Shown here: positions 34,376 through 62,273 of the stretch, piece by piece | Layout: each line of letters opens with the position of its first letter | Position numbering within the stretch: position 1 is the first letter of the stretch | Source: Oceanobacillus caeni | GTDB taxonomy: Bacteria; Bacillota; Bacilli; Bacillales; Amphibacillaceae | NCBI RefSeq assembly: GCF_019037185.1 | Contig: NZ_JAHHXM010000001.1 | Coordinates: 186,001-250,000 of the forward strand | DNA length: 64,000 nucleotides | Reading direction: 5' to 3' | Position numbers and translations under genes: made by a program | The notes under the pieces: model-generated | What the model was told of the DNA's origin: nothing | Seen by the model: the letters and a program-made list of their open reading frames with translations, nothing else | Databases searched by the model: none

Positions 34376-35404
34376 TTAATCACGAGTAACATCAATAAGT
34401 TCTTTCGTATCAATAGATTGTTGTAGTGCATATGCAACTCTTGTTCCTTCTAAACCGTCACGTGCACTAACTCCCGGTTGACGTTTTTCTCTAATACAAG
34501 ATGCAAACTCTTTCATTTCATTTAAAAATGCATCTCTGAAACGTTCAGGGAAATGTTGTGATGTAGGTCTAACGACACCGTTTTCATTAAAGACCGTAAC
34601 TAAATTCTTGTCTGGTTGAGCCCCGATCCGTAACATTCCTTTCGTTCCTATTAATTCTGTTTCTACATGATAGCCATGAATTGCGTTACGTCCAGCCACA
34701 AGTAGAGCCATCGTTTTATCTTCTAATTGCATCATTGCAGCGCCGGTCTCCAATTCACCAACTTCGTCTAATTCTGGGTATGCAGCATTTTTACCAAGTG
34801 CCCAAACACGGTTTACTTCTTTACCTGAGAACCAACGAACTATGTCAATATCATGAATAGACATGTCGGCGAAAAGTCCACCGCTGTTACTTGCCCCAGC
34901 AAATTTCACAAAGCTTTCCAAACCTGAACAAGGATCAATACCATAACAACGAATAACCGTTAGTTCACCTAAATCCCCGCGTTCTACCATTTCTTTTGCA
35001 TATTGGTACGACTCATCATAACGTCTCATAAATCCAAGTTGGAAAACCAGTTCGGGACGGGATTCAATAATTTCAACTGTCTTTTTAATTTCTTTTATTT
35101 CTAATCCAATTGGTTTTTCACAGAAAACATGCAACCCTTTTTCCATCGCTAGATTAATTTGTTCTGTATGAAATCCTGATGGTGATACAATTACGACTGC
35201 ATCTAAGTTTGGACTATTAACCATCTCTTCATAGGAAATATATGTTTCTGTTACACCAAGTTGTTCTCTAGCATAGTCTAATTCTGATTCTACAACACTA
35301 CATGCAGCAGTTAATGTCATTCCCGGTATATTGGAAGCAACATTATTCGCATGTGTTTTACCAAGTCTACCTAAACCTACAATACCTACTTTTATATCCA
35401 CCAT
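34376..35404 (-). CDS. Gfo/Idh/MocA dehydrogenase, inositol dehydrogenase-like
   Basis: 342 residues. GLGRLGKTHA NAD loop (about 9-18), catalytic Lys in CEKPIG, QLGFMRRYD, and Asp/His in ADMSIHDIDIVRWF, the pattern of inositol 2-dehydrogenases. Close in size to B. subtilis IolX (scyllo-inositol dehydrogenase) and IolG, but it is not the best IolG candidate here (43614-44660 is). Probably oxidises a cyclitol hydroxyl with NAD(P). ATG 35404 after GGAGGATG. Upstream is a TTGACT/TAATAT promoter overlapped by a cre-like site, with a TTAACCGCTA operator variant in the leader. Followed by the SSS gene. Confidence 0.85.
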   Translation of the reverse strand: MVDIKVGIVGLGRLGKTHANNVASNIPGMTLTAACSVVESELDYAREQLGVTETYISYEEMVNSPNLDAVVIVSPSGFHTEQINLAMEKGLHVFCEKPIGLEIKEIKKTVEIIESRPELVFQLGFMRRYDESYQYAKEMVERGDLGELTVIRCYGIDPCSGLESFVKFAGASNSGGLFADMSIHDIDIVRWFSGKEVNRVWALGKNAAYPELDEVGELETGAAMMQLEDKTMALLVAGRNAIHGYHVETELIGTKGMLRIGAQPDKNLVTVFNENGVVRPTSQHFPERFRDAFLNEMKEFASCIREKRQPGVSARDGLEGTRVAYALQQSIDTKELIDVTRD

Positions 35405-35448
35405 TTATGCATCCTCCATTCAGAAGCGTACCAATACTTAATAATAAA

Positions 35449-35458
35449 TTAACCGCTA
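35449..35458. promoter_or_regulatory. LacI-type operator variant (TTAACCGCTA)
   Basis: Variant of the TTAAGCGCTT family found throughout 35-61 kb. It lies 45 bases before the dehydrogenase start codon. Confidence 0.4.
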
Positions 35459-35497
35459 AGTATTAGTTACACCACCAAACTATCATGTTATGATTAT

Positions 35498-35526
35498 ATA
35501 TTAATTGTGGATGCGTTTTCAGTCAA
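35498..35526 (-). promoter_or_regulatory. promoter with overlapping cre-like site
   Basis: TTGACT (35521-35526), 17 bases, TAATAT (35498-35503). The spacer carries TGAAAACGCATCCA (35508-35521), 12 of 14 cre positions. The layout copies that of the iolA promoter. Confidence 0.5.
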
Positions 35527-35625
35527 GTGTTTTTTTGTAGATCTTTGTCAAATTCTATAATTTTGTTGGTAAGTCTTGTATTCTACCATAAAGAAAACTA
35601 TCCACTATTCATTAATAACAATAAC

Positions 35626-35661
35626 AAACGTAGTGATTTATATTGTGAATATCACTACGTT
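35626..35661 (-). terminator. terminator of the first LacI gene
   Basis: AAACGTAGTGAT and ATCACTACGTTT form a perfect 12-bp stem, about 105 bases past the LacI stop, with TTTGTT following on the minus strand. Confidence 0.65.
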
Positions 35662-35765
35662 TCTTTCTAATTGTGAATAAGTGGTTAATAACTTAAAAAT
35701 AAACTCGATAGAAAAGATTTAAACATACCAATTATTCACATGTTTTTATTATTAGTTAATACTTT

Positions 35766-36779
35766 TCAATTTTTTAGGTGTTTTGGAGGCTGTGCTGTTG
35801 ATTCCCTTACAATTAATTCAGGTACAAATAAAGTTCTTTCCGTAGCCAAATGAGGCATCTTGATTTGTCTAATTAAAACATCCACAATTTTGTCTGCCAT
35901 GTCTTTAATTGGTTGAGCAACAGTTGTTAATTCCGGAACTGTTGTTGTAGAAAGAATCATATTATCAAACCCAATGACGGATATATCTTTTGGCACTTCC
36001 AGCCCTAAACTTCTTGCTGCTTTCAACGCTCCTACCGCTAATATATCATTCGCCGCAAATACCGCAGTTGGTCGATCCTCTTTTTGTAACAACCCAAGCA
36101 TCGCTTTCTCCCCATTTTGTATCGATGCTGTCGTTCTTATTACATTTTCTTCGCTTACTGGCATTCCATGCATTCCTAATAAGTCACGATATGCGTGTAA
36201 CCTAAGCGTACTGCTGTGAACCTTTTCAGCAATTACTGCAATATTTTGATGCCCCAGCGAAATAAGATGATTAATAGCTAAAAAGCCACCACGGTAATCA
36301 TCGACAGAAACAACATTAAAACTTTCGGTTAAATTATCTTGAGCAAGTAATGTAACGGGAATATTGTTTTGGTGAAACTCTTCTACTAAGTGAATGTTTT
36401 GGAACCCAGATGCAATAATAAATCCATCCGCCTGTTTGCTTTGCAGTAACTCTATATACCGTTTTTCCTTTTCCTCATTATAATCCGTACTACAAATAAA
36501 TAAAGTTAACCCCATTTCGTGTGCTTTATCCTCTATGAATCTCGAAATCTCTGAAAAAAATGGGTTCGAAATATCTGGAATAATTAATGCCAAGGAATCT
36601 GTTTGTTTTTTGGTTAAAGCTGAAGCAACTACGTTAGGTTTATAGTTTAGACGCTGGATCACTTTGTTTACTTTTTTTCTAGTCGGATCGCTTATACTAC
36701 CTGTTTTATTGATGACTTTGGATACTGTTGCTATGGAAACTTTTGCTTCTTTCGCAACATCATATATTGTCGGTTTCAT
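35766..36779 (-). CDS. LacI-family transcriptional regulator 1
   Basis: 337 residues. N-terminal helix-turn-helix (TIYDVAKEAKVSIATVSKVI, residues 4-23), hinge helix with the minor-groove Leu (VVASAL, about 51-56), then a periplasmic-binding-protein-like effector domain. I start it at ATG 36779 (MKPTIYDV), after GGAGGGGGT; an opening at 36827 adds 16 residues unlike the family. A paralogue lies at 61269-62273. A Leu hinge and ATVS recognition helix fit operators with a central CG, such as the TTAAGCGCTT sites of this region. Downstream of the ABC operon and its dehydrogenase. Confidence 0.9.
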   Translation of the reverse strand: MKPTIYDVAKEAKVSIATVSKVINKTGSISDPTRKKVNKVIQRLNYKPNVVASALTKKQTDSLALIIPDISNPFFSEISRFIEDKAHEMGLTLFICSTDYNEEKEKRYIELLQSKQADGFIIASGFQNIHLVEEFHQNNIPVTLLAQDNLTESFNVVSVDDYRGGFLAINHLISLGHQNIAVIAEKVHSSTLRLHAYRDLLGMHGMPVSEENVIRTTASIQNGEKAMLGLLQKEDRPTAVFAANDILAVGALKAARSLGLEVPKDISVIGFDNMILSTTTVPELTTVAQPIKDMADKIVDVLIRQIKMPHLATERTLFVPELIVRESTAQPPKHLKN

Positions 36780-36860
36780 CCTTACCCCCTCCATACTAAA
36801 AAGAAACAGATAATACATATGTAACATCTAAGAATCTATTGGATTCTCTATGAAACAGAA

Positions 36861-36980: not shown

Positions 36981-36990
36981 TTAAGCGCTT
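36981..36990. promoter_or_regulatory. TTAAGCGCTT operator
   Basis: Exact copy of the palindrome, 202 bases upstream of LacI 1 and just after the 37012 gene. Could be used for autoregulation. Confidence 0.45.
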
Positions 36991-37011
36991 TCCAAGGACC
37001 TCAAAAAAATA

Positions 37012-38019
37012 TTAATCTACTCTACTTACTTCTACTTCTGTACCAGATTTTATAGAGGCAAAACAAGCTTCCAGCGTATTCATATTATGAATCGTACTCT
37101 TACTATCATAACGAGGTTCTGCTTGATTTAACATACAATCCGAAATATGCTCCATTGCTAATTTATATTCATCGCCTTCGATGATTTCTTTCCTCACTTC
37201 CCCATCATTACTAATAACTTGGATAATTCCTTCTCCATTAAATAAATCTGGGCGATATGCTCTTGGGACTTGAATAATCCCCTTGGTACCAACTACCTCA
37301 TAACTCATATGTTGAGCCATATCCATACTACAATCAAAAACACCTTTAACCCCATTGTCAAATTCCATAATCCCAGTGGTAGAAATATCAACAGGGTTTC
37401 CCTTATGAATTGCTTTTGCGTATACATGAGTAGGCTCTTGTTTTAAAATGTCACGAATCGTGTGAATACAATAAACTCCTACATCGTAAAGGCTCCCACC
37501 ACCTGTTTCCGTCGTTAATCGGAAATTACCATTCTTATTATCTAAGAAAAAGGAACAATGGGAGCGGACTAGTTTCACATCCCCAATTTCTCCAGTAGTA
37601 ATAATATCTCTTACTCTCTGATTTTGTGGATGATATTGATACATAAACGTTTCCATGAAAAGTACATTATTTTTCTCGCAAACCTCTATCATTTCTTTTG
37701 TATCCTCTACCGTTAGTGCGGCAGGTTTTTCGCAAAGAACGTGTTTACCGGCTTCAGCTGCCTTCTTTACCCATTCTGCATGTAAATGGTTTGGAAGCGG
37801 AATGTAAACGGCATCAATTGATGGATCATTTAATAATTCTTCAAAACTATGATAAGCTTTTGGGATATTAAATTTCTTAGCTTGTAAACTAGCACTCCCA
37901 CTCGCACTATGACTTGCAATTGCTATTAACTCTGCATTTTTAGCACGTAATATAGCCGGAATTGTTAATTTTCTTGCGATATCAGCTGTACTCAAAATTC
38001 CCCAATTCACTATTGACAT
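37012..38019 (-). CDS. Gfo/Idh/MocA dehydrogenase, dihydrodiol/xylose-dehydrogenase-like branch
   Basis: 335 residues. NAD(P) loop GILSTADIARK (about residues 7-17), CEKPAALT with the catalytic Lys (about 92-99), MYQYHPQ, and GGGSLYDVGVYCIH. This pattern (STADIA..., VYIPLPNHLH) marks the branch with 1,5-anhydrofructose reductase, D-xylose dehydrogenase and dimeric dihydrodiol dehydrogenase, not IolG. Last gene behind the ABC importer (25-base gap), so it probably acts on the imported sugar. A paralogue (338 aa) is at 48343-49359. Confidence 0.83.
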   Translation of the reverse strand: MSIVNWGILSTADIARKLTIPAILRAKNAELIAIASHSASGSASLQAKKFNIPKAYHSFEELLNDPSIDAVYIPLPNHLHAEWVKKAAEAGKHVLCEKPAALTVEDTKEMIEVCEKNNVLFMETFMYQYHPQNQRVRDIITTGEIGDVKLVRSHCSFFLDNKNGNFRLTTETGGGSLYDVGVYCIHTIRDILKQEPTHVYAKAIHKGNPVDISTTGIMEFDNGVKGVFDCSMDMAQHMSYEVVGTKGIIQVPRAYRPDLFNGEGIIQVISNDGEVRKEIIEGDEYKLAMEHISDCMLNQAEPRYDSKSTIHNMNTLEACFASIKSGTEVEVSRVD

Positions 38020-38044: not shown

Positions 38045-38920
38045 TTATCCTTTTACTGCACCCATCGTCATTCCTCGTACAAGGTGTTTTTGGGCAATAA
38101 ATGAGAATATCAATACTGGAATTATAGATATAGTTGCAGCGGCTGTCAAGGCGCCCCAGTTCGTTTCGTACTGCGTAATAAATGTTGAAATACCTGCTGG
38201 GAGTGTCATCATGTTTGTTGAATTTAGCAAGAACATCGCAAACATAAATTCGTTCCAAGTTAAGATTAGGGTAAAAATAGACGTCGCTACAAACCCTGGT
38301 AAAACCAATGGTAACACTATAATGTGGAATGATTTCATTCGAGATGCACCATCAATCATCGCAGATTCTTCAAGTTCTTCCGGAATTTCTTCAAAAAATG
38401 CCTTTAACATCCATACTACAAATGGCAAGTTAAATCCGGTATACACAATTAGCATCGCCCAATGTGTATTGATTAACCCTAATTGTTGCATGATTAGATA
38501 CATAGGAATAACAACAACTATCGGTGGCAACATACGAGCAGTTAAGATGAGAAAAGAAATCTTTTCACTACGATTATTTTTCATTTTGAAACGTGCCAAA
38601 CTATAAGCCGCGTAGGCACCGATTACTAAACAGAGAATCATAGATACGAAAGAAACAATCATACTATTGATAAAAAACTGTGGGAACGCACTACCACTTG
38701 CAAAAATTCCATTAACAGGATCAAAATAATGTTCCCAAGTTAATTCTTTAGGGAAGAACGTTTGCGCTTTAGCAAATAGCTCCCCTTCCGTTTTTAAACT
38801 AGTAATGACCATCCAATACAACGGAAATAATACAAATAGAATGGAACCTACTAGGAATACATAACGGAATATGGTAGACCCTAATTCTCCTCGAGCAACC
38901 GTATTTTTGAATTTAGACAT
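38045..38920 (-). CDS. ABC sugar importer permease (MalG type)
   Basis: 291 residues, six helices, CUT1 family. The cytoplasmic EAA loop, which contacts the ATPase, is EESAMIDGASRMKSFHIIVLP (about 185-205). Pairs with the permease encoded just upstream (15-base gap). Start ATG 38920 after AAAGGAGGGATAAGGAT. Inner membrane. Confidence 0.9.
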   Translation of the reverse strand: MSKFKNTVARGELGSTIFRYVFLVGSILFVLFPLYWMVITSLKTEGELFAKAQTFFPKELTWEHYFDPVNGIFASGSAFPQFFINSMIVSFVSMILCLVIGAYAAYSLARFKMKNNRSEKISFLILTARMLPPIVVVIPMYLIMQQLGLINTHWAMLIVYTGFNLPFVVWMLKAFFEEIPEELEESAMIDGASRMKSFHIIVLPLVLPGFVATSIFTLILTWNEFMFAMFLLNSTNMMTLPAGISTFITQYETNWGALTAAATISIIPVLIFSFIAQKHLVRGMTMGAVKG

Positions 38921-38935
38921 ATCCTTATCCCTCCT

Positions 38936-39910
38936 TTAGCCTTTAGCCTGAGATGTATTCATCATTCTTATTAGTAAAGTAGAAATAACAATGGTAATAA
39001 TCAATACAATAAATAGACCAGCAGAAGCAAATCCAAAATCTGTAAACTTCATTGCGGAACGATACATTAAATAACTGATTGTTTCTGTTGAGGTTCCTGG
39101 ACCACCCTGTGTTAAAACGAACACCTGGTCAAACGTACGAAGTGCATCCATCGTACGGATCACTAGAGCTACAATAATAATTGGCTTTAACATCGGAATA
39201 GTGATAAAACGAATGATTTGGAATTTAGTTGCTCCATCAATTGCTGCCGCTTCAAATGGATCACGTGGTAAAGCCTGTAATCCGGCAAGAATAATTAAGA
39301 AACACATTGGCATCCATTGCCAAATATCGACAAAAACTAAGGAAGCAAACGCTAAAGAAGCTTCTCCAAGGAAATTAATCTTCGGTAATCCAATACTTTG
39401 CAATAAGTAGTTAATGATTCCCATATCCGTATTTAACATAAGTCGGAAAACAACCGCTACGACTAACGGGGACAACATCATTGGTATAATTAGCAACCAA
39501 CGTAAATACTGCATAGCCTTTCCATCTTTAGATACCATGTTAGCAAGGGTGAAACCTAAAGTAATTTCAATCGATACTGATAACATAGTGAACAATAGAG
39601 TAACGTAAATCGCATTCCAAAAATCGCCATTTGTTAGTACATTAGAGTAGTTATCGATACCTGTAAAACCTATTGAATTCCCAAAAGTATCATATCCAGA
39701 AAAAGAAACAACTAATGAATATATGATTGGAAAAATAGTTACAATTGCGAGTAGCGTTAGTGTCGGTAATAATAACAAATATGGTAAATTTTTTTCGGAA
39801 TTGATTTTAGCCGGCTTTTGATTGTTTTTAGGGCTTTTTACATTTTTCGAGCCTTTTCCCTCATATCTTTCCATATCGAATTGTTGTGCCAAATTATCCT
39901 GATTACCCAT
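38936..39910 (-). CDS. ABC sugar importer permease (MalF type)
   Basis: About 324 residues, six helices, CUT1 family, after a polar cytoplasmic N-terminal tail of about 45 residues. EAA loop: EAAAIDGATKFQIIRFITIP. I start it at ATG 39910 (MGNQDNLAQQF), after GGGGAGGT; an opening at 39958 adds 16 residues without a ribosome binding site. Forms the membrane pore with the MalG-type permease. Downstream of the binding protein with a 71-base gap. Confidence 0.88.
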   Translation of the reverse strand: MGNQDNLAQQFDMERYEGKGSKNVKSPKNNQKPAKINSEKNLPYLLLLPTLTLLAIVTIFPIIYSLVVSFSGYDTFGNSIGFTGIDNYSNVLTNGDFWNAIYVTLLFTMLSVSIEITLGFTLANMVSKDGKAMQYLRWLLIIPMMLSPLVVAVVFRLMLNTDMGIINYLLQSIGLPKINFLGEASLAFASLVFVDIWQWMPMCFLIILAGLQALPRDPFEAAAIDGATKFQIIRFITIPMLKPIIIVALVIRTMDALRTFDQVFVLTQGGPGTSTETISYLMYRSAMKFTDFGFASAGLFIVLIITIVISTLLIRMMNTSQAKG

Positions 39911-39981
39911 TCTATTCAACCTCCCCTTTGAACCAAATAATATGGAGGGCAGCATCACAGTACGTAATGCTGCTAAAATGA

Positions 39982-41301
39982 TTATTTATAATAACCATTA
40001 TCTTCCATTAGTTTTTCAATCTCAGCTGCAGCTTTATCAAGAGCTTCTTTCGCCGTTAAATCATCTGTCATTGCTTGGTTAAGTGCTGTACCATAAATAG
40101 ACTCGATTTGAGAGTATAATGGTGTACGTGGACGGAAATTAGCATTGTTTAATCCTTCAGCTATTGCATCTAAATAAGGATATTCTTCTAGTAATTCCGG
40201 ATCCGTTAACACACTAGTTCGTGTTGGAACTCCACCATTTAATACCGCTTCTTTTTGAATTTCTTTAGAGTTTGCCCACTCGATAAACTGAAGAGCAGCC
40301 TCTTTCTTCTCAGAAACCTCAGGAATGGCCATAATCCAATTGCCAATCATTGGCGCATGATCATTACCTTCTGCTTTTGGAACTAAAGTGTATCCAATTT
40401 TCCCTTTAACAGATGAACCTTCTTTTTCCATTTCAGGAGCCCAAGATGGCCATACGATTGATAGTAAACCTTCACCTTGTACCATTACACGGCCAATTTC
40501 ATCGGCATTATAGTTCGCAACCCCATCTGGAGCAGTATCTCTCATGCTTAAGTAAAACTCTAAAGCTTCAATTGCTTCAGGACTATTCACTGTTACATTC
40601 CAATCTTCATCGAAGAAGTCAGCTCCATGCGACCATAAGAAAGCATTAAAGTTTGTTGCAATACCATTACCGCGTGCACCACGGTGGATGAATCCATACT
40701 CAATATCTTTACCCGCATGTTCCTTAATAGCATTTTCCACATCAGCCCAAGTTTCTGGTTCTTCCATAAGATCTTTACGATAGAATAACATTTGCACGTT
40801 TCCAACAGATGGAACACCATAGAAGCGTGGTTCTTCATTCGGATCAGACCCAGGAAGACGTGGGCCCTCTGGTGCCGGCCACATACTTACTTTACGAGAT
40901 GTTTCAGCGAAATCATCTTCCACTTCAAATCCAAGTTCGTCTAGTGGAGTTAAGAATCCACCACCAGCAAACATTGGCATCCAAGGATCATCCGCAAATA
41001 CTACATCGTACGCCCCACCATTAGAACGTAAATCGTTATAAATGCGCTCGTAAAGTGTGTCATAGTTAAATTCATTTAAGTTTACTTTAATACCAGTTTC
41101 TTCTTCAAATTGGGGGACTAGTTGTTTAATTGCAGCAGTTTCTGTACCTGCAACCATTGCTACAGATATTTCATCCGCACTACCCGATCCACTGTCAGAT
41201 CCACCAGACGAATTACTACTACCACTATCACTGCTACTATTACTACTACATCCAGCAATTATTAGTAACGCTAAAACTAGTAAAGCAAATATCTTTTTCA
41301 T
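39982..41301 (-). CDS. ABC importer solute-binding lipoprotein (CUT1)
   Basis: 439 residues. Lipoprotein signal with lipobox LIIAGC (Cys18), then a Ser/Gly-rich linker (about 19-45), then a bacterial family 1 binding protein for sugars (FEEETGIKVNLNEFNYDTLY; WMPMFAGGGFLTPLDELG). Tethered outside the membrane, it delivers substrate to the two permeases. No ATPase gene is in the operon; in Bacillus the shared ATPase MsmX serves many CUT1 importers, which I assume here. Substrate unknown. Two palindromic operators precede it. AAGGGGTGA eight bases before ATG 41301. Confidence 0.9.
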   Translation of the reverse strand: MKKIFALLVLALLIIAGCSSNSSSDSGSSNSSGGSDSGSGSADEISVAMVAGTETAAIKQLVPQFEEETGIKVNLNEFNYDTLYERIYNDLRSNGGAYDVVFADDPWMPMFAGGGFLTPLDELGFEVEDDFAETSRKVSMWPAPEGPRLPGSDPNEEPRFYGVPSVGNVQMLFYRKDLMEEPETWADVENAIKEHAGKDIEYGFIHRGARGNGIATNFNAFLWSHGADFFDEDWNVTVNSPEAIEALEFYLSMRDTAPDGVANYNADEIGRVMVQGEGLLSIVWPSWAPEMEKEGSSVKGKIGYTLVPKAEGNDHAPMIGNWIMAIPEVSEKKEAALQFIEWANSKEIQKEAVLNGGVPTRTSVLTDPELLEEYPYLDAIAEGLNNANFRPRTPLYSQIESIYGTALNQAMTDDLTAKEALDKAAAEIEKLMEDNGYYK

Positions 41302-41444: not shown

Positions 41445-41450
41445 TCTCTT

Positions 41451-41541: not shown

Positions 41542-42486
41542 TTAATTAAAATTCCTTCCAATAGTATCCTTTAAAATATTGGTAGAATGGTGTAATGCCG
41601 CCATTGTATCTATTGTATGATCCTCTAATTCAAGACTGATGGAACCCTTGTAACCGCTCATTCGAATAGCTGAGAAGAACTCTTTCCACCATAATGATGG
41701 ATTACCATATCCAATCGCCACAAAGTTCCAAGATCGTTCTGTAAACCGATCTACTGTTTTGGTGTCTAATAATCCATCTTTTTCATAAATTCCTTTTTCA
41801 AATCGAACATCTTTCGCATGAACATGATGAATCGCATCACCTAATGATCTGGCAGCTATGATTGGATCTGCTCCCATCCAAAACATATGACTTGGATCTA
41901 GATTCATCCCTATCATATTTCCTGCTTGATTTCTTAACTTCATTAACGTTTCTGTATTGTAAATTAACTGAGAACCATGATTTTCTATGGCAACCTTCTC
42001 GATTCCATGCTCTTTAGCTAACGTAACTGTTTTCTCCCAATAAGGAAAAGCTACTTCATTCCATTGCCAATCTAGTATTTCTTTGTTTTCTGGTGGCCAA
42101 CTAGTCGTGATCCAATTCGGTGTGGTATCATTTGGATTTCCTCCTGGTAAACCAGACATCATGACAATTGTTTTAACATTTAAAAGTTCAGCTAGTTGAA
42201 ATGTCTTTTCTATTACTCTTCGATGTTCTTCTCCTTGTTTATTAGGTGCCAATTGATTACCCGAACAGTTTAATGCATCAATCTTCATACCATATTTTTC
42301 AATAGTATGGAGATAACTTTCCCGCTTTTCTTTACTATTTAAAAGTCCGTCTAAGTCCAAGTGTGGGGCACTAGACCAGTTTCCACATCCAATTTCTATC
42401 GTTTCGTATCCCAAATCAGATACCGTCTTTAACATTTCTTCAAATTTCAAATGAGCTAAACTATCCGTAACAATTCCTAGTTTCAT
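41542..42486 (-). CDS. TIM-barrel sugar phosphate isomerase/epimerase family protein
   Basis: 314 residues, AP_endonuc_2 superfamily. Metal-site segments: KVAIENHGSQ, GMNLDPSHMFWMGADP, HHVHAKDV and SLELEDHT. The insert with WPPENKEILDWQWNEVAFPYW is typical of the larger members often found with Gfo/Idh/MocA dehydrogenases. ATG 42486 is chosen over GTG 42495, because AAGGTGA overlaps that GTG and lies five bases before the ATG. Stands behind a terminator (42629-42672), so it has its own promoter. Reaction unknown; isomerisation, epimerisation or dehydration of a keto-sugar are all possible. Confidence 0.8.
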   Translation of the reverse strand: MKLGIVTDSLAHLKFEEMLKTVSDLGYETIEIGCGNWSSAPHLDLDGLLNSKEKRESYLHTIEKYGMKIDALNCSGNQLAPNKQGEEHRRVIEKTFQLAELLNVKTIVMMSGLPGGNPNDTTPNWITTSWPPENKEILDWQWNEVAFPYWEKTVTLAKEHGIEKVAIENHGSQLIYNTETLMKLRNQAGNMIGMNLDPSHMFWMGADPIIAARSLGDAIHHVHAKDVRFEKGIYEKDGLLDTKTVDRFTERSWNFVAIGYGNPSLWWKEFFSAIRMSGYKGSISLELEDHTIDTMAALHHSTNILKDTIGRNFN

Positions 42487-42628
42487 CTTTTTCACCTTAT
42501 TTCTATATATTTTTTATTACTTAGTTTGTGGGGCTTGCTGAAACCTTCCTGCGGTTGATTCCCGATATTTTTGTGTGAATACTGATATAATGTGCATGTT
42601 CTTCCGATAAAACTACCCAACTACTAAA

Positions 42629-43613: not shown

Positions 43614-44708
<1,095 letters not shown>

Positions 44709-46144: not shown

Positions 46145-46214
46145 AACCATCCACTCCTTCATTGATTAATATTATGGGTTAAGGGACAGACTAATTAGAT
46201 TTTCTAGTCATGTC

Positions 46215-48169: not shown

Positions 48170-48201
48170 ACCAAACTCCTCCTTCTTTGATAAACTGCAG
48201 A

Positions 48202-48211
48202 TTAACCGCTT
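48202..48211. promoter_or_regulatory. operator variant (TTAACCGCTT) before the transketolase genes
   Basis: One-base variant of TTAAGCGCTT. The 170-base gap also has TTGAT...ATCAA and ATACTTGAT...ATCAAGTAT inverted repeats. No clear promoter was found. Confidence 0.45.
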
Positions 48212-48342
48212 TATCATTTTTTGAAAGAAAAATACTTGATGTTATCCACTATGATAATGGGTTAAGTGAAAAAAGTTTTGATCAGACGGTTAATCAACCT
48301 ATATATCAAGTATATTTCTATTTTATTAAGTCACCATGAAAG

Positions 48343-51527: not shown

Positions 51528-51581
51528 TGTTTCCCCTCCTTTAAGGATTAGATGCCCCATAGGTATGGGGCATCTAAATGA

Positions 51582-54383: not shown

Positions 54384-55382
54384 TTAAAGAAATACTTTTT
54401 CTTTTATTTTAAATGATTCCGTTGCTGCGACAGCTACTTCTAATGTTTTCATACCGTCTACTTCATCGACAATTGGTTTCTTATTATTCTGAACACAGTC
54501 GATGAAATGTTCTAACTCTGCAACGAAAGCATCTCCAAACTTTGTAAGAAAATCCGGAACATTATCATGGTAACTCTTGTTGTTTTTTAGAATAATATTG
54601 TTATGGTATTGTAAAGAACCTATTTGAATAGAGCCTTCTGTACCTACAACCTCACCACGAATATCGTAGCCAAAAGCGGAATTTCTGCTACCTTCGATAC
54701 TTGCTGTAGCTCCATTTTTGAATTTCAGTACGGTAATGGATTGATCGACATCTCCGTACTTGTTCATAAATGGATGAACGAGTACATCTCCAAACGATTG
54801 AACAGATTCCACTTCGTTCCCCATAAGGAATCTCGCAATATCATACTCATGGATATTTAAATCTAAGAAAATACCACCACTCGTTTTGATATAGGACTCT
54901 GGGGGAGAACCTGGGTCACGACTAACTCCCTTGAAATAAAGAGGTTTCCCTATATCACCCTGTTGAATCCTTTTTTTAGCTTTAGCATATGAAGGATCAA
55001 ACCTGCGCATAAAGCCCACTTGGCAGATTACTCCATTACTAGCAACCTCTTTTATAACCTCTTCTGCTTCTTCCAATGTTTCTGTCACTGGTTTATCTAC
55101 AAAAATATGTTTCTTACTTCTTGCTGCTTGTATAATAAGCTCAGCATGAGTTTTCGTTGGGGTCACAATGATGACAGCGTCTATGGATTTATCATCAAAT
55201 ATTTCTTGTGGATCAATCGACCATCTATCTATTCCCAATTCTGCTGCTGCTCGCTTTGCACTTTCTTCCCTTGTAGCAACGACAGCAACGATTTCTGCAC
55301 CTTTGACCCTTGTAGCAGTATTTTTCGCATGAAAGATACCTAATCTTCCAACACCAATTACCGCACAGCGAATCATTCTCAA
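54384..55382 (-). CDS. inositol dehydrogenase-like Gfo/Idh/MocA protein (paralogue b)
   Basis: About 332 residues. IGVGRLGIFHAKN NAD loop, VDKPVTET (Asp instead of Glu before the catalytic Lys-Pro), CQVGFMRRFDPSYAKAKKRI and Asp/His in FLDLNIHEYDIARFL. Closest to paralogue c at 59939, sharing SRDPGSPPESY. The start is either TTG 55382 (AAGGT ten bases upstream) or ATG 55376. First gene of the iolD2-B2-E2 run, with a TTAAGCGCTT operator 47 bases upstream. Confidence 0.83.
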   Translation of the reverse strand: MRMIRCAVIGVGRLGIFHAKNTATRVKGAEIVAVVATREESAKRAAAELGIDRWSIDPQEIFDDKSIDAVIIVTPTKTHAELIIQAARSKKHIFVDKPVTETLEEAEEVIKEVASNGVICQVGFMRRFDPSYAKAKKRIQQGDIGKPLYFKGVSRDPGSPPESYIKTSGGIFLDLNIHEYDIARFLMGNEVESVQSFGDVLVHPFMNKYGDVDQSITVLKFKNGATASIEGSRNSAFGYDIRGEVVGTEGSIQIGSLQYHNNIILKNNKSYHDNVPDFLTKFGDAFVAELEHFIDCVQNNKKPIVDEVDGMKTLEVAVAATESFKIKEKVFL

Positions 55383-55428
55383 ATGTATCACTACCTTCAA
55401 AAAAATATTTACATCCTATAGTTTCCAG

Positions 55429-55438
55429 TTAAGCGCTT
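55429..55438. promoter_or_regulatory. TTAAGCGCTT operator before the iolD2-B2-E2 run
   Basis: Exact palindrome, flanked symmetrically by CCAG and CTGG at slightly larger distance (CCAGTTAAGCGCTTTCCTGG region). Placed in the short gap after the phosphofructokinase-like gene. Confidence 0.6.
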
Positions 55439-55458
55439 TCCTGGAATTGAAAAATATA

Positions 55459-56662
55459 CTAAATCACCCGTTGATAGATTGGTAACCCATTTTTCATTGG
55501 AAGAACAATTTCACCTTTAATCATTGGGAACGCGTAATCCTTAAAATCCAATGTCATTATATTTTCTTCGACGTTATACCATTCCGTTGGGATAATTTTT
55601 TCCTTCTCTGCCACTTCTTTTAGCTGTATTGTTTCATAAGAAATATGATAATCCACTTCATGTGGATCTCTCTTTAGGCCGACCATAATCCCAGTTTGGT
55701 TTAAATTCGCTAGGCGAACAGCATGTATTCCTAAATGATAAGCCTCTTCTACATCTGTTTTCGAAGCGAGAGTCATACTGCTTCTTTGCCAAACACTTGA
55801 AGTCATATACCTGGTTTTAATACCTGTTTCATTTTCGATCATATCTTTCAAATAAGATGAAACACCACCCAATTTTGGTCTTCCTAAGAAATCATATTCT
55901 GTATACGTGTTAACTAATTCACCATTTTTCTTGCGAATTCCTTCTGCAACGACTAGAATCGTATTTCTTTTTTCACGATTTGCCTTTTCCAACTTATCTA
56001 CGCACTTAACAAAATCAAATGCAACTTCAGGAATATAAATAAGTAGTTGACTATTTTCAGTAAGATAATCCTCAGCCAATGAACATGCACCAGCAAGCCA
56101 ACCTGAATTTCTCCCCATCGTTTCAATTATAGTTACACCATTGCTTTCCGGGTAACTCCCCATATCCATATCTACATCGATGATGGAAGTTGCTAAAAAC
56201 TTAGCTGAACTCCCATATCCCGGAGAATGGTCCGTACCAACTACATCATTGTCTATTGATTTAGGAATACCAATAACAATAAGATTATATTCTACATCCA
56301 TTACATACTCATGAATCATCTTCGCTACGTTCATAGAACCATTTTCCACCTATGTAGAAAAAATACCGAATATCATTCTTCACAAGGATATGTACTATTT
56401 TTTCTATATCCTCTTTTGATAATTTATAACGCTGTGTACCGAGAGCTGCTCCAGGAGTCCACCTTAATCTGTTTCGTTCACTGATAGAAAGATTCTTTAA
56501 ACTAACAAATTCTTCATGCAGTAAACCATAAATCCCACCAACAGCCCCATAAATTTCTCCATCAAATGGGGTTCTTGATATTCCGTCAATAATCCCAATG
56601 AGAGAATTATTTATGACTGCTGTAGGCCCTCCTGACTGGACAATCATACAATTCTCCTGCAT
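55459..56662 (-). pseudogene. phosphofructokinase-like gene broken by a one-base insertion
   Basis: Two overlapping frames (56309-56662 and 55459-56349) together give a 400-residue PFK-family protein. The break is in the AAAA run at 56342-56345 (minus strand), inside the sugar/nucleotide motif: YFFYIGG is followed by NGSMNVAKMI in the other frame. Removing one A restores IGGNGSMN. Other motifs are intact: SGGPTAVINNSLIG, PGAALGTQRYKL, IPKSIDNDVVGTDHSPGYG, MGRNSGWLAGA and PKLGG. The Lys before SIDND is typical of PPi-dependent enzymes, but GGNGS has Asn where GGDGS or GGDDS is usual. A real pseudogene, a slippage-corrected gene or a sequencing error remain open. Confidence 0.8.
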
Positions 56663-56687: not shown

Positions 56688-56697
56688 TTAAGCGCTT
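56688..56697. promoter_or_regulatory. TTAAGCGCTT operator before the phosphofructokinase-like gene
   Basis: Exact palindrome in the leader, about 40 bases after the -10 box, 26 bases before the start codon. Confidence 0.6.
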
Positions 56698-56735
56698 CAC
56701 CTTTAGGGTAAAAATAATTTCTATCTACAGTTTAT

Positions 56736-56989: not shown

Positions 56990-58426
56990 TTATGCTTCTT
57001 TAATATCCCCCACCTCTTCCTTGTCATAATTACGAAATCGTTGTTCTAATTCTTCTAGAGAAAGTCCTTTTGTTTCTGGTAAGAATTTCACAACAAAAGT
57101 TATAGCAAATATACCGATTATCGCAAACATAAAGAATGTAATACTTAATCCAAAGCTACTTAATAGTACTGGGAAAGAGAAACTAATTAAGAAGTTCGTC
57201 ATCCAGCTAAAAAATACTGCTACACCAAAGCCCAGCCCACGAATACGTAATGGGAATATTTCTGCTAACATTAACCAAGTCACTGGAGAAATTGCTCCTT
57301 GTTGGAAAGCTAGGAAGGTAACGGTTAATGTTAGTACAATATATGGAAGTGCTGTTGCACCTGCAAATAAATTTGAAAATAATCCGATTAATGCTAGAGC
57401 ACTGGTTGTACCGATTAGCCCGACTGCCAACATTGGACGTCTTCCAACTTTACCAAGTAACCAAATACCAACAAAAGTTGCTAGCACAGAAATGATACCG
57501 TTTGCAATATTACCTATAAGTGCTGCCTGAGTCCCTAGACCAGCATCTCTTAGAATTTCCGTACCATAATACATAATCGAGTTAACACCTGTAGCCTGTT
57601 GAACAACCCCAATCCCGATACCAATGATCACAACTCTTTTTATCCATGGTTTTTTTAAATCCTTCATGGAGGCCTTATCATAATTTTGTTCCGCTTGAAT
57701 GTTCCCTTGAATTTCTTCTAGCTCTGTCTTTGCTTGATTAATGTCACGGATTTGTTTTAAAACCTTAAGCGCATCTCCCATTTTTCCTTTTGACGCATAC
57801 CAACGTGGACTTTCTGGAACGATTAACATCCCCAACCATAATACGATTGCTGGAAGGGTTGCAAGAACGAGCATGATTCTCCATACACCGGGGTCTGCCA
57901 CAGTGTTACCAAGAATTGCATTAGACACGTATGATAGAAGTTGACCTGTAACAATCATCAGTTCATTTTGTGTAACCATACGTCCACGACGTTCTTTTGG
58001 TGACATTTCAGATAAGAATGTTGGTACAGTTACAGAAGCACCACCAACAGCAAGCCCAAGAATGATACGTGATATAACCATTACTGGAACGTTTGGTGCT
58101 AAGGCACATCCCAATGTTGAGAAAAAGAATACAATGGCAAGCCATAAAATTAATTTACGACGACCATATTTATCAGAAAGTTGCCCGCCAAAAAAAGCAC
58201 CAAATGCAGCACCTAAAATCAATGAACTAGAAACAATACCTTCTGTAAAAGCATTTAAGTTTAATTGGCTTTCCATAGACATAAATGGTAAAGCACCGTT
58301 GATAACCCCGGTGTCAAAGCCAAATAACAATCCACCAAATGTGGCAATAATCGCTATGATTTTTAGCCTTTTATCACGTTCTTTAATCGTCATCGTTTTA
58401 TCCGTGGATAAACCATTTTTACTCAT
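56990..58426 (-). CDS. second IolT-type inositol/sugar transporter
   Basis: 478 residues, 12 helices, MFS sugar porter, alignable with IolT (22383) over its full length: GGLLFGFDTGVINGALPF, DKYGRRK, PESPRW, GKVGRRP and PETKG. The paralogue probably imports an inositol isomer or related polyol. ATG 58426 (MSKNGLSTDK) follows GGGAGGAA; a longer opening at 58453 is not needed. It has its own near-consensus promoter, an operator at the transcription start, a leader of almost 400 bases, and a strong terminator. Confidence 0.9.
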   Translation of the reverse strand: MSKNGLSTDKTMTIKERDKRLKIIAIIATFGGLLFGFDTGVINGALPFMSMESQLNLNAFTEGIVSSSLILGAAFGAFFGGQLSDKYGRRKLILWLAIVFFFSTLGCALAPNVPVMVISRIILGLAVGGASVTVPTFLSEMSPKERRGRMVTQNELMIVTGQLLSYVSNAILGNTVADPGVWRIMLVLATLPAIVLWLGMLIVPESPRWYASKGKMGDALKVLKQIRDINQAKTELEEIQGNIQAEQNYDKASMKDLKKPWIKRVVIIGIGIGVVQQATGVNSIMYYGTEILRDAGLGTQAALIGNIANGIISVLATFVGIWLLGKVGRRPMLAVGLIGTTSALALIGLFSNLFAGATALPYIVLTLTVTFLAFQQGAISPVTWLMLAEIFPLRIRGLGFGVAVFFSWMTNFLISFSFPVLLSSFGLSITFFMFAIIGIFAITFVVKFLPETKGLSLEELEQRFRNYDKEEVGDIKEA

Positions 58427-58680
58427 GTATATTTCCTCCCATAAATAGGGCAAGGATCCTTGTTCCAGATGTAAGATTAACTAGTGAGGTACGAACCCTG
58501 TCCCCCTCCTATGTAATCGGATTCATTTATTAGAACCCTTATTTTCTAGCAACATATTAGAAAGTAATTGCATTCACAATCTTTTAACGGATCTTTTATT
58601 TTATACTTAGAGGTCTAAAAATTTTCACTACACCTAATGACTTCCTTATTAAAAAACCCACACTTTTATGGCCTTCTCGA

Positions 58681-58804: not shown

Positions 58805-58816
58805 TATCTAATTTGT

Positions 58817-58903: not shown

Positions 58904-59917
58904 TTACACCGTTTCCAATTCCTTTTTATATTCTGATAAAGTTATCTTTTCACCTGTCTTAGCACTCTCATAAATAGCATCAATAAGTTTAGCAGTTTGA
59001 TAACCATCCTCTGCTGAGACTGGTTGCTTCGATCCATTCACTAAGGAATCAATAAACAATCTATCTTCTTCTACATATCCCCATTTATCAGCAAAAGACA
59101 CATCAAAGTATTCTTCAACTTCAATCTTTTGATTTAGGCCCGGAGAATACATGACATGATCTAAATCTTTCGTTGTAATAGTAGAATGTTTTCCGTAAAC
59201 TTCTAAACTTTCAAATGGAAAACTCCAACCAGAGTGAGCATACGTTACAAAAGTAGCTATTGTTCCAGATTCATATGTTAATAAAATCGTGAAACTATCA
59301 AGTTCACTTTCTGAAATACTTTGTCTTGCCTCACAAGTAACCGTCACGGCTTCTCCAAAAAGATATCTACTTAAATCTAATAAATGGATCGGAGTTTCAA
59401 AAAAGAAGCCCCCAGTAATTTCTGGGTTACTTGTCCAAGCAGGATTTAACAATTCACCACGGTTCAATTTCATATGGGCAACATATGGATGAAGCTCCCC
59501 TTTTTCTATCAGACCCTTAACCTTTTTAAATACATGGGCATATCTTTGGTTCATCCCTAAATTATAAATAGCATCTGATTTTGTTGCCGCATCTTTAATT
59601 TTCTTTGCATCAGCTAAATTGGTTGCCATTGGTTTTTCCGAAAATACACTTACATTGTTTTCCAGACATGTTAATACAGCATCGACATGTAATGTATTTG
59701 GTATCGTTACGTAAACCGTATCAACACCTAATTCAAATAATTCATCCAAGCTTCCAACAGGTTTTGCATGTTTTGTTTGTTTTGCTAGATTTTCTGCATT
59801 CTCTTGTTTAATATCGGCAATTCCAATAATATCTACACGCGGATCATTATTTAAATTATTGACATGTGTTTGAGCGATACCACCGGCTCCTAAAATCCCA
59901 ACTTTTACTTTTGACAT
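58904..59917 (-). CDS. Gfo/Idh/MocA dehydrogenase
   Basis: 337 residues. GILGAGGIAQTHVNNL NAD loop (about 6-21), SEKPMATN with the catalytic Lys, NQRYAHVFKKVK, and FFFETPIHLLDLSRYLFG, where Glu/Thr and His fill the usual Asp/His zone. It differs from the IolX-like paralogues and from the xylose-dehydrogenase-like pair, so it forms a fourth branch in this island. ATG 59917 (MSKVKVGIL) after GGGGGGAAG. Second gene behind paralogue c (21-base gap), ends without a clear terminator. Confidence 0.82.
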   Translation of the reverse strand: MSKVKVGILGAGGIAQTHVNNLNNDPRVDIIGIADIKQENAENLAKQTKHAKPVGSLDELFELGVDTVYVTIPNTLHVDAVLTCLENNVSVFSEKPMATNLADAKKIKDAATKSDAIYNLGMNQRYAHVFKKVKGLIEKGELHPYVAHMKLNRGELLNPAWTSNPEITGGFFFETPIHLLDLSRYLFGEAVTVTCEARQSISESELDSFTILLTYESGTIATFVTYAHSGWSFPFESLEVYGKHSTITTKDLDHVMYSPGLNQKIEVEEYFDVSFADKWGYVEEDRLFIDSLVNGSKQPVSAEDGYQTAKLIDAIYESAKTGEKITLSEYKKELETV

Positions 59918-59938
59918 AAAACTTCCCCCCATAGATAC

Positions 59939-60970
59939 TTATTTCATCGCTTCAAAAACTTTTCTTCTTACTTCAATTTCTTGATCTTTTTCACATGATT
60001 CAACAGCAGAAGCAGCTACTTCTAGAGATCTTAAAGCAGAAACTGCTGTATTCACTGGTTCATTCTCATTATTTAGTACACCAACAAAGTATTCCATTTC
60101 TTTCATAAAGGATTCACGGAATCTCGTTTGATACTCAGGCACTATTTCACTACTATTGTTACCGTTTAGTGATAAAAACTGTACATCTTGATTACGCAAG
60201 CTTCCTAATTGAATCGTTCCCTCTGTTCCAATTACTTCCGAACGAATATCATAACCATAACCTGCGTTTCGGCTAGATTCGATATCTCCAAAAGCACCTG
60301 ATTCAAACGTAATTAAGGAGTGCGCTTGATCATAGTCATTGTATTTTTTCAAATATTCATCCATTAATACTTTACCAACAGACCTGATCGAATGAATCTC
60401 TGAATCCATTAAATATCTAGCTGCATCAAAATCATGGATGGTAAAGTCATGGAATATACTTCCACTTGTTTTCACATAAGATTCTGGAGGAGAACCCGGG
60501 TCCCTTCCAACCGCTTTGAAATAAATTGGCTGTCCGATATCCCCTTGTTCAATTCTTCTTTTTGCTTCTTGATATGTAGGATCGAATCTTCTCATAAAAC
60601 CTACTTGACAAATGACGTTATTTCTATTAATTATCTCAATTACTTCATGAGCTTCTTCAATCGTTTTGGTAATAGGTTTTTCAACAAAAATATGTTTGCC
60701 ACTTTCAGCAGCTCGTTTAATTAAATCTGCATGTGTATAATTCGGTGTTGTAATCACAACTGCATCTACATGATCATCCTCAAAAACTTCTGATAGACTT
60801 GTAGTCCAATTTTGAATTCCTAATTTATCCGCTGCACGTTTCGCACTTTCCTCACGCGTTGCAGCAACCTTTTCAATCCTAGCATTCGGTACTCGATGCT
60901 GAATATTAGACGCATGCAAAAAACCTAAAGTCCCTACCCCTATAGACGCAATACGTATTTCTTTAGTCAA
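59939..60970 (-). CDS. inositol dehydrogenase-like Gfo/Idh/MocA protein (paralogue c)
   Basis: 343 residues. IGVGTLGFLHASN NAD loop, VEKPITKT (catalytic Lys), CQVGFMRRFDPTYQEAKRRI, and Asp/His in FHDFTIHDFDAARYL. Paralogue of the 49528 and 54384 genes; the strand before the active site reads GSIFHDF where the others have GGIFLD. TTG 60970 with AAAGGAGG eight bases upstream. First gene of a two-dehydrogenase operon driven by a good promoter with three operator-like sites. Confidence 0.85.
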   Translation of the reverse strand: MTKEIRIASIGVGTLGFLHASNIQHRVPNARIEKVAATREESAKRAADKLGIQNWTTSLSEVFEDDHVDAVVITTPNYTHADLIKRAAESGKHIFVEKPITKTIEEAHEVIEIINRNNVICQVGFMRRFDPTYQEAKRRIEQGDIGQPIYFKAVGRDPGSPPESYVKTSGSIFHDFTIHDFDAARYLMDSEIHSIRSVGKVLMDEYLKKYNDYDQAHSLITFESGAFGDIESSRNAGYGYDIRSEVIGTEGTIQLGSLRNQDVQFLSLNGNNSSEIVPEYQTRFRESFMKEMEYFVGVLNNENEPVNTAVSALRSLEVAASAVESCEKDQEIEVRRKVFEAMK

Positions 60971-61108: not shown

Positions 61109-61150
61109 TTAAACGCTTACATATAATGTTAATATAAGGGTAACCGCTTA
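61109..61150. promoter_or_regulatory. two operator variants before the dehydrogenase operon
   Basis: TTAAACGCTT (61109-61118) and TAACCGCTTA (61141-61150), both downstream of the -10 box. On the minus strand the latter reads TTAAGCGGTTACCC starting ten bases after the -10. Confidence 0.5.
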
Positions 61151-61161
61151 ACTATATTACC

Positions 61162-61190
61162 AGTATAATTTAAGATAAGTTTATAGTCAA
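61162..61190 (-). promoter_or_regulatory. promoter of the 58904-60970 operon
   Basis: TTGACT (61185-61190), 17 bases, TATACT (61162-61167) on the minus strand, about 190 bases before the start codon. The untranslated leader (60971-61155) shows no gene. Confidence 0.72.
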
Positions 61191-61210
61191 ACAATTTTGT
61201 CACTTTCGGA

Positions 61211-61220
61211 TAAAGCGCTT
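61211..61220. promoter_or_regulatory. operator variant TAAAGCGCTT upstream of the promoter
   Basis: About 25 bases upstream of the -35 box; with the downstream sites it could support repressor looping. Confidence 0.45.
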
Positions 61221-61224
61221 CATT

Positions 61225-61270
61225 AAAATAGGTAAAACAGATGTCAAATTCATCCGTCTTACCTATTTTT
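61225..61270 (-). terminator. terminator of the second LacI gene
   Basis: AAAATAGGTAA(GAC)GGATG and its partner ending TTACCTATTTT pair through most of their length. It overlaps the LacI stop codon. Confidence 0.75.
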
Positions 61271-62273
61271 ACAATTCTTTCGTTGATTTTCTTTTAACAA
61301 GATCCGGAACCAATGTAATACGTACTTCATCATCTCTCTCCCCTTTAAAAATAGAGATGATTAAATCCATTACTTCCCTTCCCATTCTCTGAATTGGTTG
61401 TGACATCGTTGTTAATGGCGGATCCACAATCGTTGCAATGTTTGTATTATCGAAGCCAACGATAGAAATATCATCTGGAACATTAAGCCCCGCATCTCTG
61501 ATAACTTGAATAGCCCCTATTGCAAGTAAATCATTGCACGCAAATATTGCTGTTGGGATATCTCCACTTTCGAGGTATTTTTTGGCACTTATGTTTCCCG
61601 CTCTTACAAGACTTTGTTTTTTATCTTCAATGAAGTGAAGGTCCTTCCGTGGTTCAATTTGATATTCCTTTAAAGCATCTTTAAAACCACGTATACGCTC
61701 TCTGTTACTATAAACATCTAATGCAATGAACCCGATATTTTTATGACCTAATTGAAGTAAATGATTTGCAGCTTGATAGCCTCCCATATAGTCATCTAAT
61801 GCAACCGCATTAATAGAGAAATTAGGGTAATCTCTTGCAACAATAACTACTGGAATATCTTCATTCAACAATTCTTGAACTTTTTCCAAGTTTTCAAAAC
61901 CAGAGGCTAAAATGAAACCGTCTACTCTTTTTTGTTTAAGTAAACTTATGTATTTATTTTCTTTCTCCTCCTGATAATCCGTACTACAAATGACGATATT
62001 GTAACTTAATTCGTGGGCTCGATCCTCGATACTTCTTGCTAGTTCAGAGAAGAATGGGTTTGCCAAATCTGGAATAATCAGTCCTATTGTTTTCGTCTGT
62101 TTTCCAGTTAAAGCGGATGCAAGTATATTCGGTTCATAATTCAGCTTTTCCATCGCTTCATGTACCCGTCTTCTCGTTTTTTCCCCAATCCTCCCCTTTT
62201 TATTAATTACATTAGAAACGGTAGCAATCGAAACGTTTGCTTCTTTTGCTACATCATAAATCGTAACCTTCAC
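61269..62273 (-). CDS. LacI-family transcriptional regulator 2
   Basis: 334 residues, full-length paralogue of regulator 1. Helix-turn-helix TIYDVAKEANVSIATVSNVI (residues 4-23), hinge NILASAL with the Leu that inserts at a central CG step, effector domain LGLIIPDLANPFF onward. Recognition helices of the two regulators differ only in K/N positions, so they may read the same operator. GTG 62273 is the first possible start, as a TGA stop lies three codons before it. Upstream of the dehydrogenase operon it probably controls. Confidence 0.9.
   Translation of the reverse strand: MKVTIYDVAKEANVSIATVSNVINKKGRIGEKTRRRVHEAMEKLNYEPNILASALTGKQTKTIGLIIPDLANPFFSELARSIEDRAHELSYNIVICSTDYQEEKENKYISLLKQKRVDGFILASGFENLEKVQELLNEDIPVVIVARDYPNFSINAVALDDYMGGYQAANHLLQLGHKNIGFIALDVYSNRERIRGFKDALKEYQIEPRKDLHFIEDKKQSLVRAGNISAKKYLESGDIPTAIFACNDLLAIGAIQVIRDAGLNVPDDISIVGFDNTNIATIVDPPLTTMSQPIQRMGREVMDLIISIFKGERDDEVRITLVPDLVKRKSTKEL

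Follow-up and report, generated by a model that had tools for sequence, protein, structure and literature searches.

Inositol catabolism of the classical Bacillus type is encoded by iolG-E-D-B-C-J-A. An island at positions 34376-62273 of a 64,000-nucleotide stretch of Oceanobacillus caeni DNA (contig NZ_JAHHXM010000001.1; the window, below, is this whole stretch) shares with it an inositol dehydrogenase, IolE, IolD and IolB, all above their model cut-offs, but is without iolC, iolJ and iolA and has a split transketolase (tktN and tktC, together tkt), another aldehyde dehydrogenase (ALDH2) and a pyrophosphate (PPi)-type phosphofructokinase-like gene (pfk). Another lower route avoiding IolC is found in Thermotoga (IolM, IolN, IolO). 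The island differs from it in having IolE, IolD and IolB; the best score of an island protein with the IolO model was 27.5 bits (TIM2; cut-off 300) and no IolM-model match was listed for island proteins. In the D-apiose transketolase pathway (AptA/AptB), the neighbours are an apulose kinase and an apiose isomerase; no kinase besides the phosphofructokinase-like gene was seen in the island.

In the sulfo-TK pathway of sulfoquinovose, SqwGH moves a ketol unit from a non-phosphorylated acid ketose to glyceraldehyde-3-phosphate, yielding xylulose-5-phosphate and an aldehyde that is oxidised further in one variant (PMC11659671, available part). The island resembles this system in its two-part transketolase with an aldehyde dehydrogenase. 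The sulfo-TK substrate is 6-deoxy-6-sulfofructose, from which two transfer rounds are made (same part of PMC11659671), whereas the transketolase of the island would act in one round on 2-deoxy-5-keto-D-gluconate (DKG) supplied by iol enzymes. NCBIfam named no sulfosugar isomerase, sulfoquinovosidase or sulfonate exporter in the island, which was not searched with the sequences of these proteins themselves. An engineered TktA forms tartaric semialdehyde from 5-keto-D-gluconate, the 2-hydroxy analogue of DKG; its increased activity on 5-ketogluconate involves changes at Arg358, His461 and Arg520, and acceptors are added (PMC12016104, available part). Equivalents of two of these residues, Arg358 and Arg520, are kept in the tktC clade. 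A sequence-only reading of the window had stated that no described pathway with this gene set was known to it, and the titles and abstract openings found in part of the open-licence literature likewise gave no transketolase branch of inositol catabolism. The available part of a survey of inositol catabolism (PMC9430895) does not use the word transketolase, and the single mention in that of PMC12130570 concerns the pentose phosphate pathway.

The island probably forms a cyclitol catabolic regulon complete in itself, with a lower half that passes through transketolase, making IolC, IolJ and IolA dispensable. IolG-type dehydrogenases, IolE2, IolD2 and IolB2 would convert inositol to DKG, as in the upper half of the classical route. 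TktN/TktC would then transfer the ketol unit of DKG to glyceraldehyde-3-phosphate, yielding xylulose-5-phosphate and (R)-malate semialdehyde. The semialdehyde would be oxidised to D-malate by ALDH2, and D-malate converted to pyruvate and CO2 by a tartrate/D-malate dehydrogenase (TTC), while xylulose-5-phosphate would return to triose phosphate through the pentose phosphate pathway and phosphofructokinase. Written from its ketose end, DKG reads CH2OH-CO-CHOH-CHOH-CH2-COOH, and both hydroxyls are placed as at C3 and C4 of fructose; this is the D-threo arrangement of fructose-6-phosphate and xylulose-5-phosphate. Ketol transfer leaves OHC-CHOH-CH2-COOH, so that by our own derivation the malate semialdehyde would have the D (R) configuration and be oxidised to D-malate. 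Sequence comparison itself shows the gene families, their conservation and co-occurrence, several genomes with no iolC above cut-off, and operator-like sites in common; we infer which substrates the transketolase, ALDH2 and TTC use, which acceptor takes the ketol unit, the stereochemistry and the ligand of the regulator.

Annotation of the open reading frames (ORFs) of the window with NCBIfam and Pfam bore out the gene list of the sequence-only reading, including its placement on one strand: the island of this Oceanobacillus-group genome comprises 22 intact genes and one with a broken frame, every one of them on the minus strand (Table 1). The expected iolG and seven further Gfo/Idh/MocA dehydrogenases are present, eight in total, as are two AP_endonuc_2 TIM barrels (TIM1 and TIM2) besides iolE2; the predicted fold of TIM2 supports assignment only to the epimerase/isomerase superfamily. 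No ATPase gene for the ABC importer was seen in the island. The phosphofructokinase-like gene had been recognised correctly, except that it is not intact: it spans two reading frames (56309-56662 and 55459-56349), with one switch of frame after codon 106 and before codon 107, and its orthologue in the relative G016 is one open frame.

As had been claimed, iolC, iolJ and iolA are absent from the island ORFs (NCBIfam scan). All three are at 13820-22100 in the first operon of the window (12560-23801), which comprises iolJ, an iolH-like gene, iolE, iolD, iolC, iolB, iolA and iolT; iolG was not found there, and the best IolG-model match of the genome is elsewhere, on contig C6 (456 bits). A redundant copy of this operon with passenger genes would fit the 75% identity of iolT2 to iolT1. 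The IolD, IolB and IolE pairs are 49, 48 and 41% identical, too distant for a recent copy, so the island is no recent duplicate of the first operon. The gene set was also found again in several families of the class, and independent scattering of its genes in relatives, which would have pointed to mere duplication, was not seen. Mere duplication is thus highly improbable. Between the two clusters, flanked by two AraC-type regulators, are a levoglucosan-dehydrogenase-like gene (363 bits, cut-off 650) and an IolE-like gene (25493-27531, minus strand); L054 has a similar pair close to tkt, as does G099 close to its iol genes (L187).

Loci of the tktC type were collected from a search of 98 relatives, a scan of named genomes (the best 80 loci of a longer list) and a survey of the class, and their neighbourhoods were read. 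At least 32 loci of the class carry it: 14 iol-type, 17 aldonate-type and one not sorted (G249). In the iol-type set iolD, iolB and iolE are near tkt almost by definition; pfk (10/14), an ALDH belonging to either of two types (10/14) and a LacI-2-like regulator (12/14) also recur there, and iolC and iolA were each found at 0/14 loci. These counts, and those for the aldonate-type loci below, depend on thresholds and on the limited length of the stretches read. The co-occurrence of iolD, iolB and iolE with the split transketolase, proposed earlier as a check on the island, is seen at 14 loci. Gene order was LacI-pfk-GfoF-iolD-iolB-iolE-GfoE-tktN-tktC-ALDH in O. polygoni (L051), iolD-tktN-tktC-iolB in Shouchella shacheensis (L066) and iolD-iolE-tktN-tktC-iolB in G413 and G297, with a like order spread over two contig ends in G236. 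Judged from these loci, tkt stays with iol genes though gene order varies by lineage.

The proposal was compared with the distribution of iolC in a draw of 398 genomes of the class, in which tktC was called at E up to 1e-100 with the best five candidates per genome scored. IolB was above cut-off in 106 genomes, IolD in 80 and IolC in 79; tktC was found in seven (G000, G163, G236, G249, G297, G302 and G413). Three genomes with iolD had no iolC above cut-off (G236, G297 and G413) and all three carried tktC, compared with 2/77 of those with both genes (Fisher P = 1.2e-4). These two are the source genome of the island and G302, whose tkt belongs to an aldonate-type cluster separate from its iol operon. 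G236 and G297 belong to the same genus, so the three genomes represent two lineages. In a separate set of 11 genomes, picked for tkt near iol genes, iolB was above cut-off in all 11 and iolC in seven. The other four (Pseudogracilibacillus auburnensis G098, Siminovitchia thermophila G101, Bacillus sp. SD075 G102 and Shouchella shacheensis G103; assembly completeness not stated) had best IolC scores of 188 to 206 bits, where IolC proper scores 396 to 417 and other sugar kinases up to 232.

These distributions bear on whether the island instead turns other cyclitols (D-chiro-, scyllo-, methylated or glycosylated inositols) into DKG for the IolC of the first operon, with tkt and ALDH2 serving an unrelated sugar imported by the ABC system. 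The eight dehydrogenases, two extra TIM barrels and own importer of the island fit such a role, as do the complete first operon of the source genome and the seven tkt-near-iol genomes with iolC. Yet the cluster occurs without iolC above cut-off in the other four and in all three survey genomes with iolD and no iolC, and tkt lies within the iolD-iolB stretch in three lineages and has operator-like sites in common with the iol genes. This explanation is unlikely. Funnelling into the first operon and a different lower pathway through the transketolase were the two alternatives of the sequence-only reading. The second is supported by tkt with iolD, iolB and iolE in relatives, by the common operator-like sites and by tktC in 3/3 iolC-less iolD genomes; funnelling alone fails for island-type clusters without iolC.

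Regulation in common was suggested by the palindrome TTAAGCGCTTAA, a pattern picked from two near-perfect sites in the window and searched for with up to two mismatches. The window has 14 sites where 4.3 are expected, a number reached in 0/100 shuffles. The 3,337 intergenic bases of the island hold 11 (0.29 expected under a first-order Markov model; maximum of three in 300 trials), or 10 unless tktN starts downstream of its longest frame, and the sole site between 12000 and 34252 falls within a gene. Relatives are the better test because the pattern was chosen from the window's own sites. Near the tktN start it was present at 10/14 iol-type and 14/17 aldonate-type loci (24/31 together) and was not found there in Shouchella, G413, G297 and G236; in G413 palindromes stand before ALDH2, iolD2 and iolE2. 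The binder of the palindrome may be LacI-2.

The closest solved relative of the tktC profile in the PDB is the C-terminal chain of the Carboxydothermus split transketolase. Its loop reads THAGLTVGEDGASHQ, compared with mostly (G/A/S)Y(S/T/A)GLL(T/N)GxTGK(T/S)HQ in the tktC clade. In the alignment, all 31 distinct tktC rows of the class have Tyr opposite the loop His, and opposite the loop Asp 28 have Thr and three have Ala. By alignment, these positions equate to E. coli His461, which is among the three residues changed in the engineered TktA, and what we take to be Asp469. Equivalents of Arg358 and of residues presumed to be Ser385 and Glu411, and of Arg520, are kept in 30/30 full rows, which exclude the fragmented L118.

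Other transketolases of this kind were encountered in passing. Among seven loci with distant tkt homologues, whose clusters could otherwise not be interpreted, is L081, a Methylomirabilota contig, where an IolD-like gene (50% identity), an IolE-like gene and tktN/tktC stand in a row (3284-9983). In L073 (8062-10921) and L076 (7984-10933), also from distant bacteria, an ORF resembling a malate/lactate dehydrogenase of another family, judged by eye with no search, precedes the tkt pair. A second split transketolase type, which keeps the loop His and is 38 to 40% identical to tktC, is encoded elsewhere in same-genus genomes (L035, L040, L043 and L046-L050).

ALDH2 is not of the IolA type, and reached 372 bits with the succinate-semialdehyde dehydrogenase (SSADH) model TIGR01780 (cut-off 646), which is exceeded by the ALDHs of Shouchella L066 (675) and Lysinibacillus L064 (666). 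A D-malate dehydrogenase had been expected on paper before TTC genes were recognised in the clusters. TTC genes lie near tktC-type tkt at 12/32 loci, adjoining ALDH2 in several relatives, and both proteins tested were above the TIGR02089 cut-off of 470.4 (L056, 495; L054, 503). Tartrate dehydrogenases of this family presumably accept both (+)-tartrate and D-malate. The source genome has a 67% TTC homologue outside the island on contig C32, and homologues of at least 49% identity are present in 10/11 genomes compared.

ALDH2 scored best with the models for lactaldehyde dehydrogenase (510, cut-off 650) and then SafD (389, cut-off 700). The transketolase might accordingly act on another ketose, such as a rare, branched or sulfo-sugar produced by the Gfo and TIM-barrel proteins, with ALDH2 oxidising lactaldehyde or similar and the iol genes being neighbours only as their substrates co-occur. 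This agrees with the existence of a described pathway, sulfo-TK, with a transketolase of this sort (PMC11659671, available part), and of a second tkt setting without iol genes. Such a ketose would, however, leave the iolB/iolD genomes without iolC, the SSADH-type ALDHs and the TTC neighbours unexplained, and annotation of the island ORFs named no sulfosugar gene; we regard it as quite improbable. Two narrower readings were rejected. Sulfoacetaldehyde, suggested by the SafD score, does not suit a tkt accompanied by iolD, iolB and iolE in an island without a named sulfosugar gene, and for lactaldehyde from a 6-deoxysugar the ALDH2 score is below cut-off and SSADH-type enzymes also fill the ALDH place.

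The second setting of tkt suggests how the proposed DKG cleavage may extend to other acids. Aldonate-type loci have Zn-dehydrogenases, a tripartite ATP-independent periplasmic (TRAP) importer above threshold (13/17), pfk (7/17), an ALDH (14/17), TTC (10/17) and a LacI-2-like regulator (14/17). In G012, the LacI-tkt-ALDH2 set stands beside TRAP genes, three Zn-dehydrogenases and a short-chain dehydrogenase/reductase (SDR). The Zn-dehydrogenases had threonine 3-dehydrogenase as best model and L-idonate 5-dehydrogenase among the matches, all below cut-off, and the SDR is closest to the gluconate 5-dehydrogenase model (263 bits, cut-off 279). The SDR is replaced in O. jeddahense (G014) by a gene of the enolase superfamily. 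In L118 (Paenibacillus sp. P25, many split ORFs) classical iol genes are directly upstream of the aldonate-type locus, and Siminovitchia thermophila has one tkt per setting (L057 and L061). The same cut on 5-keto-D-gluconate would give tartaric semialdehyde and then L-tartrate.

In a tktC tree of 47 hand-picked rows (14 iol-type, 15/17 aldonate-type without L070 and L118, one other of the class and 17 distant), the two settings interleave with a minimum of eight changes, at least two of which are forced by well-supported branches, and the setting labels cluster no better than shuffled ones (89/500 as low). One transketolase in both settings is compatible with a common 5-keto-hexonate substrate. 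On balance we lean towards the view that Tyr-loop split transketolases form a general lower pathway for 5-keto-hexonates with no kinase or aldolase at that step. Inositols would yield xylulose-5-phosphate and D-malate, and TRAP-imported aldonates, via 5-keto-D-gluconate, xylulose-5-phosphate and L-tartrate; both would end in one tartrate/D-malate dehydrogenase under one LacI-type regulon, with IolC, IolJ and IolA wholly replaced in some bacteria.

Several observations weigh against a transketolase route for inositol. The source strain has a complete first operon with IolC, IolJ and IolA, to which DKG could still go, and the pfk of the island is frame-broken. With all 106 iolB genomes the association of tktC with absence of iolC is not significant (3/29 against 2/77, P = 0.12), because in 25 genomes iolB scores low and iolC and iolD both fall short of the cut-off. 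For that reason iolB alone was set aside and iolD taken after it as the better survey marker; when iolB was restricted to scores of 278 bits or more (80 genomes; a limit chosen once the gap had been seen), P was 4.8e-4. G292 has iolB, no iolC and no tktC-type tkt, and its iolD is fragmentary. A class II (IolJ-like) aldolase is near tkt at 2/14 iol-type and 3/17 aldonate-type loci. No ALDH was seen near tkt in G297 and G236, nor one above threshold in G101 and G102. TTC is near tkt at only 2/14 iol-type loci, and G104 is without a good TTC homologue (36%). Lastly, the Tyr loop is no proof of substrate, because it is also present in distant bacteria whose clusters could not be interpreted. The 25 low-scoring IolB-like proteins themselves (up to 256 bits, cut-off 205) may serve another pathway.

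Table 1. Genes and operator-like sites of the island, in window coordinates; mismatches are relative to the palindrome given in the text
Feature	Position	Strand	Basis
GfoA, inositol 2-dehydrogenase-type	34376..35404	-	TIGR04380 365.8 bits (cut-off 355)
LacI-1, second LacI regulator	35766..36827	-	NCBIfam; 48% identity to LacI-2
Operator-like palindrome before LacI-1	36981..36992		2 mismatches
GfoB, Gfo/Idh/MocA dehydrogenase	37012..38019	-	NCBIfam and Pfam; no model above cut-off
ABC sugar importer, binding protein and two permeases	38045..41301	-	NCBIfam
Two operator-like palindromes before ABC genes	41332-41343, 41435-41446		2 mismatches each
TIM1, xylose-isomerase-like TIM barrel	41542..42495	-	PF01261
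TIM2, epimerase/isomerase-type TIM barrel	42720..43526	-	PF01261; predicted fold closest to UlaE and D-tagatose 3-epimerases
GfoC, inositol 2-dehydrogenase/D-chiro-inositol dehydrogenase type	43614..44660	-	NF052679 627.5 bits (cut-off 540)
ALDH2, proposed malate-semialdehyde dehydrogenase	44717..46162	-	Best models lactaldehyde dehydrogenase and SafD (scores in text); Cys, Glu, Asn motifs
tktC, C-terminal half of split transketolase, Tyr-loop type	46362..47315	-	Transketolase models
tktN, N-terminal half of split transketolase	47318..48217	-	Transketolase models; thiamine pyrophosphate (TPP) motif; true start may be downstream of 48217
Operator-like palindrome at tktN start	48202..48213		2 mismatches
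GfoD, Gfo/Idh/MocA dehydrogenase	48343..49359	-	Pfam and NCBIfam; no model above cut-off
GfoE, IolG-like dehydrogenase	49528..50562	-	TIGR04380 345 bits, slightly below cut-off 355; PDB relatives include inositol dehydrogenases
iolE2, inosose dehydratase	50592..51560	-	TIGR04379 379 bits (cut-off 290)
iolB2, 5-deoxyglucuronate isomerase	51582..52394	-	TIGR04378 355 bits (cut-off 205)
iolD2, ring-opening hydrolase	52452..54356	-	TIGR04377 950 bits (cut-off 715); TPP motif
GfoF, inositol 2-dehydrogenase-type	54384..55400	-	TIGR04380 366.5 bits (cut-off 355); closest named PDB relatives are inositol dehydrogenases
Operator-like palindrome before GfoF	55429..55440		2 mismatches; present in G016 and O. 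polygoni too
pfk, PPi-type phosphofructokinase, frame-broken	55459..56662	-	PRK14072 model matches both pieces
Operator-like palindrome before pfk	56688..56699		1 mismatch; pfk site in G016 and O. polygoni too
iolT2, sugar-porter major facilitator superfamily transporter	56990..58453	-	TIGR00879; identity to iolT1 in text
Two operator-like palindromes before iolT2	58681-58692, 58795-58806		1 mismatch each
GfoG, Gfo/Idh/MocA dehydrogenase	58904..59932	-	TIGR04380 144.6 bits; Pfam
GfoH, IolG-like dehydrogenase	59939..60970	-	TIGR04380 339.5 bits, slightly below cut-off 355
Three operator-like palindromes before GfoH	61109, 61140, 61211 (span 61109..61222)		2 mismatches each
LacI-2, proposed island regulator	61269..62273	-	LacI/RbsR-like

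Two Rfam matches were also recorded in the window: a Bacillaceae-1 RNA (RF01690) between tktC and ALDH2 (46282-46338, minus strand; 41.3 bits, gathering threshold 35) and a cspA thermoregulator (RF01766; 1907-2301, plus strand; 92.6 bits).

The comparative-genomic case for the proposed new variant of inositol catabolism is strong. According to the available part of a 2022 survey of 193,757 genomes, iolC is one of four core genes, 1,024 genomes have just three of these and the fourth lies elsewhere in 810; incomplete genomes, assembly errors and frameshifts were offered there as possible reasons for a missing core gene (PMC9430895). Part of the remaining 214 may use the transketolase route. If true, the proposal would add a new lower branch to the textbook inositol pathway and account for iol clusters without iolC, and would give D-malate and tartrate a natural source. 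The proposal also directs attention to naturally occurring transketolases for the production of tartaric or malic semialdehyde, for which an engineered TktA was used in the work cited above (PMC12016104, available part).

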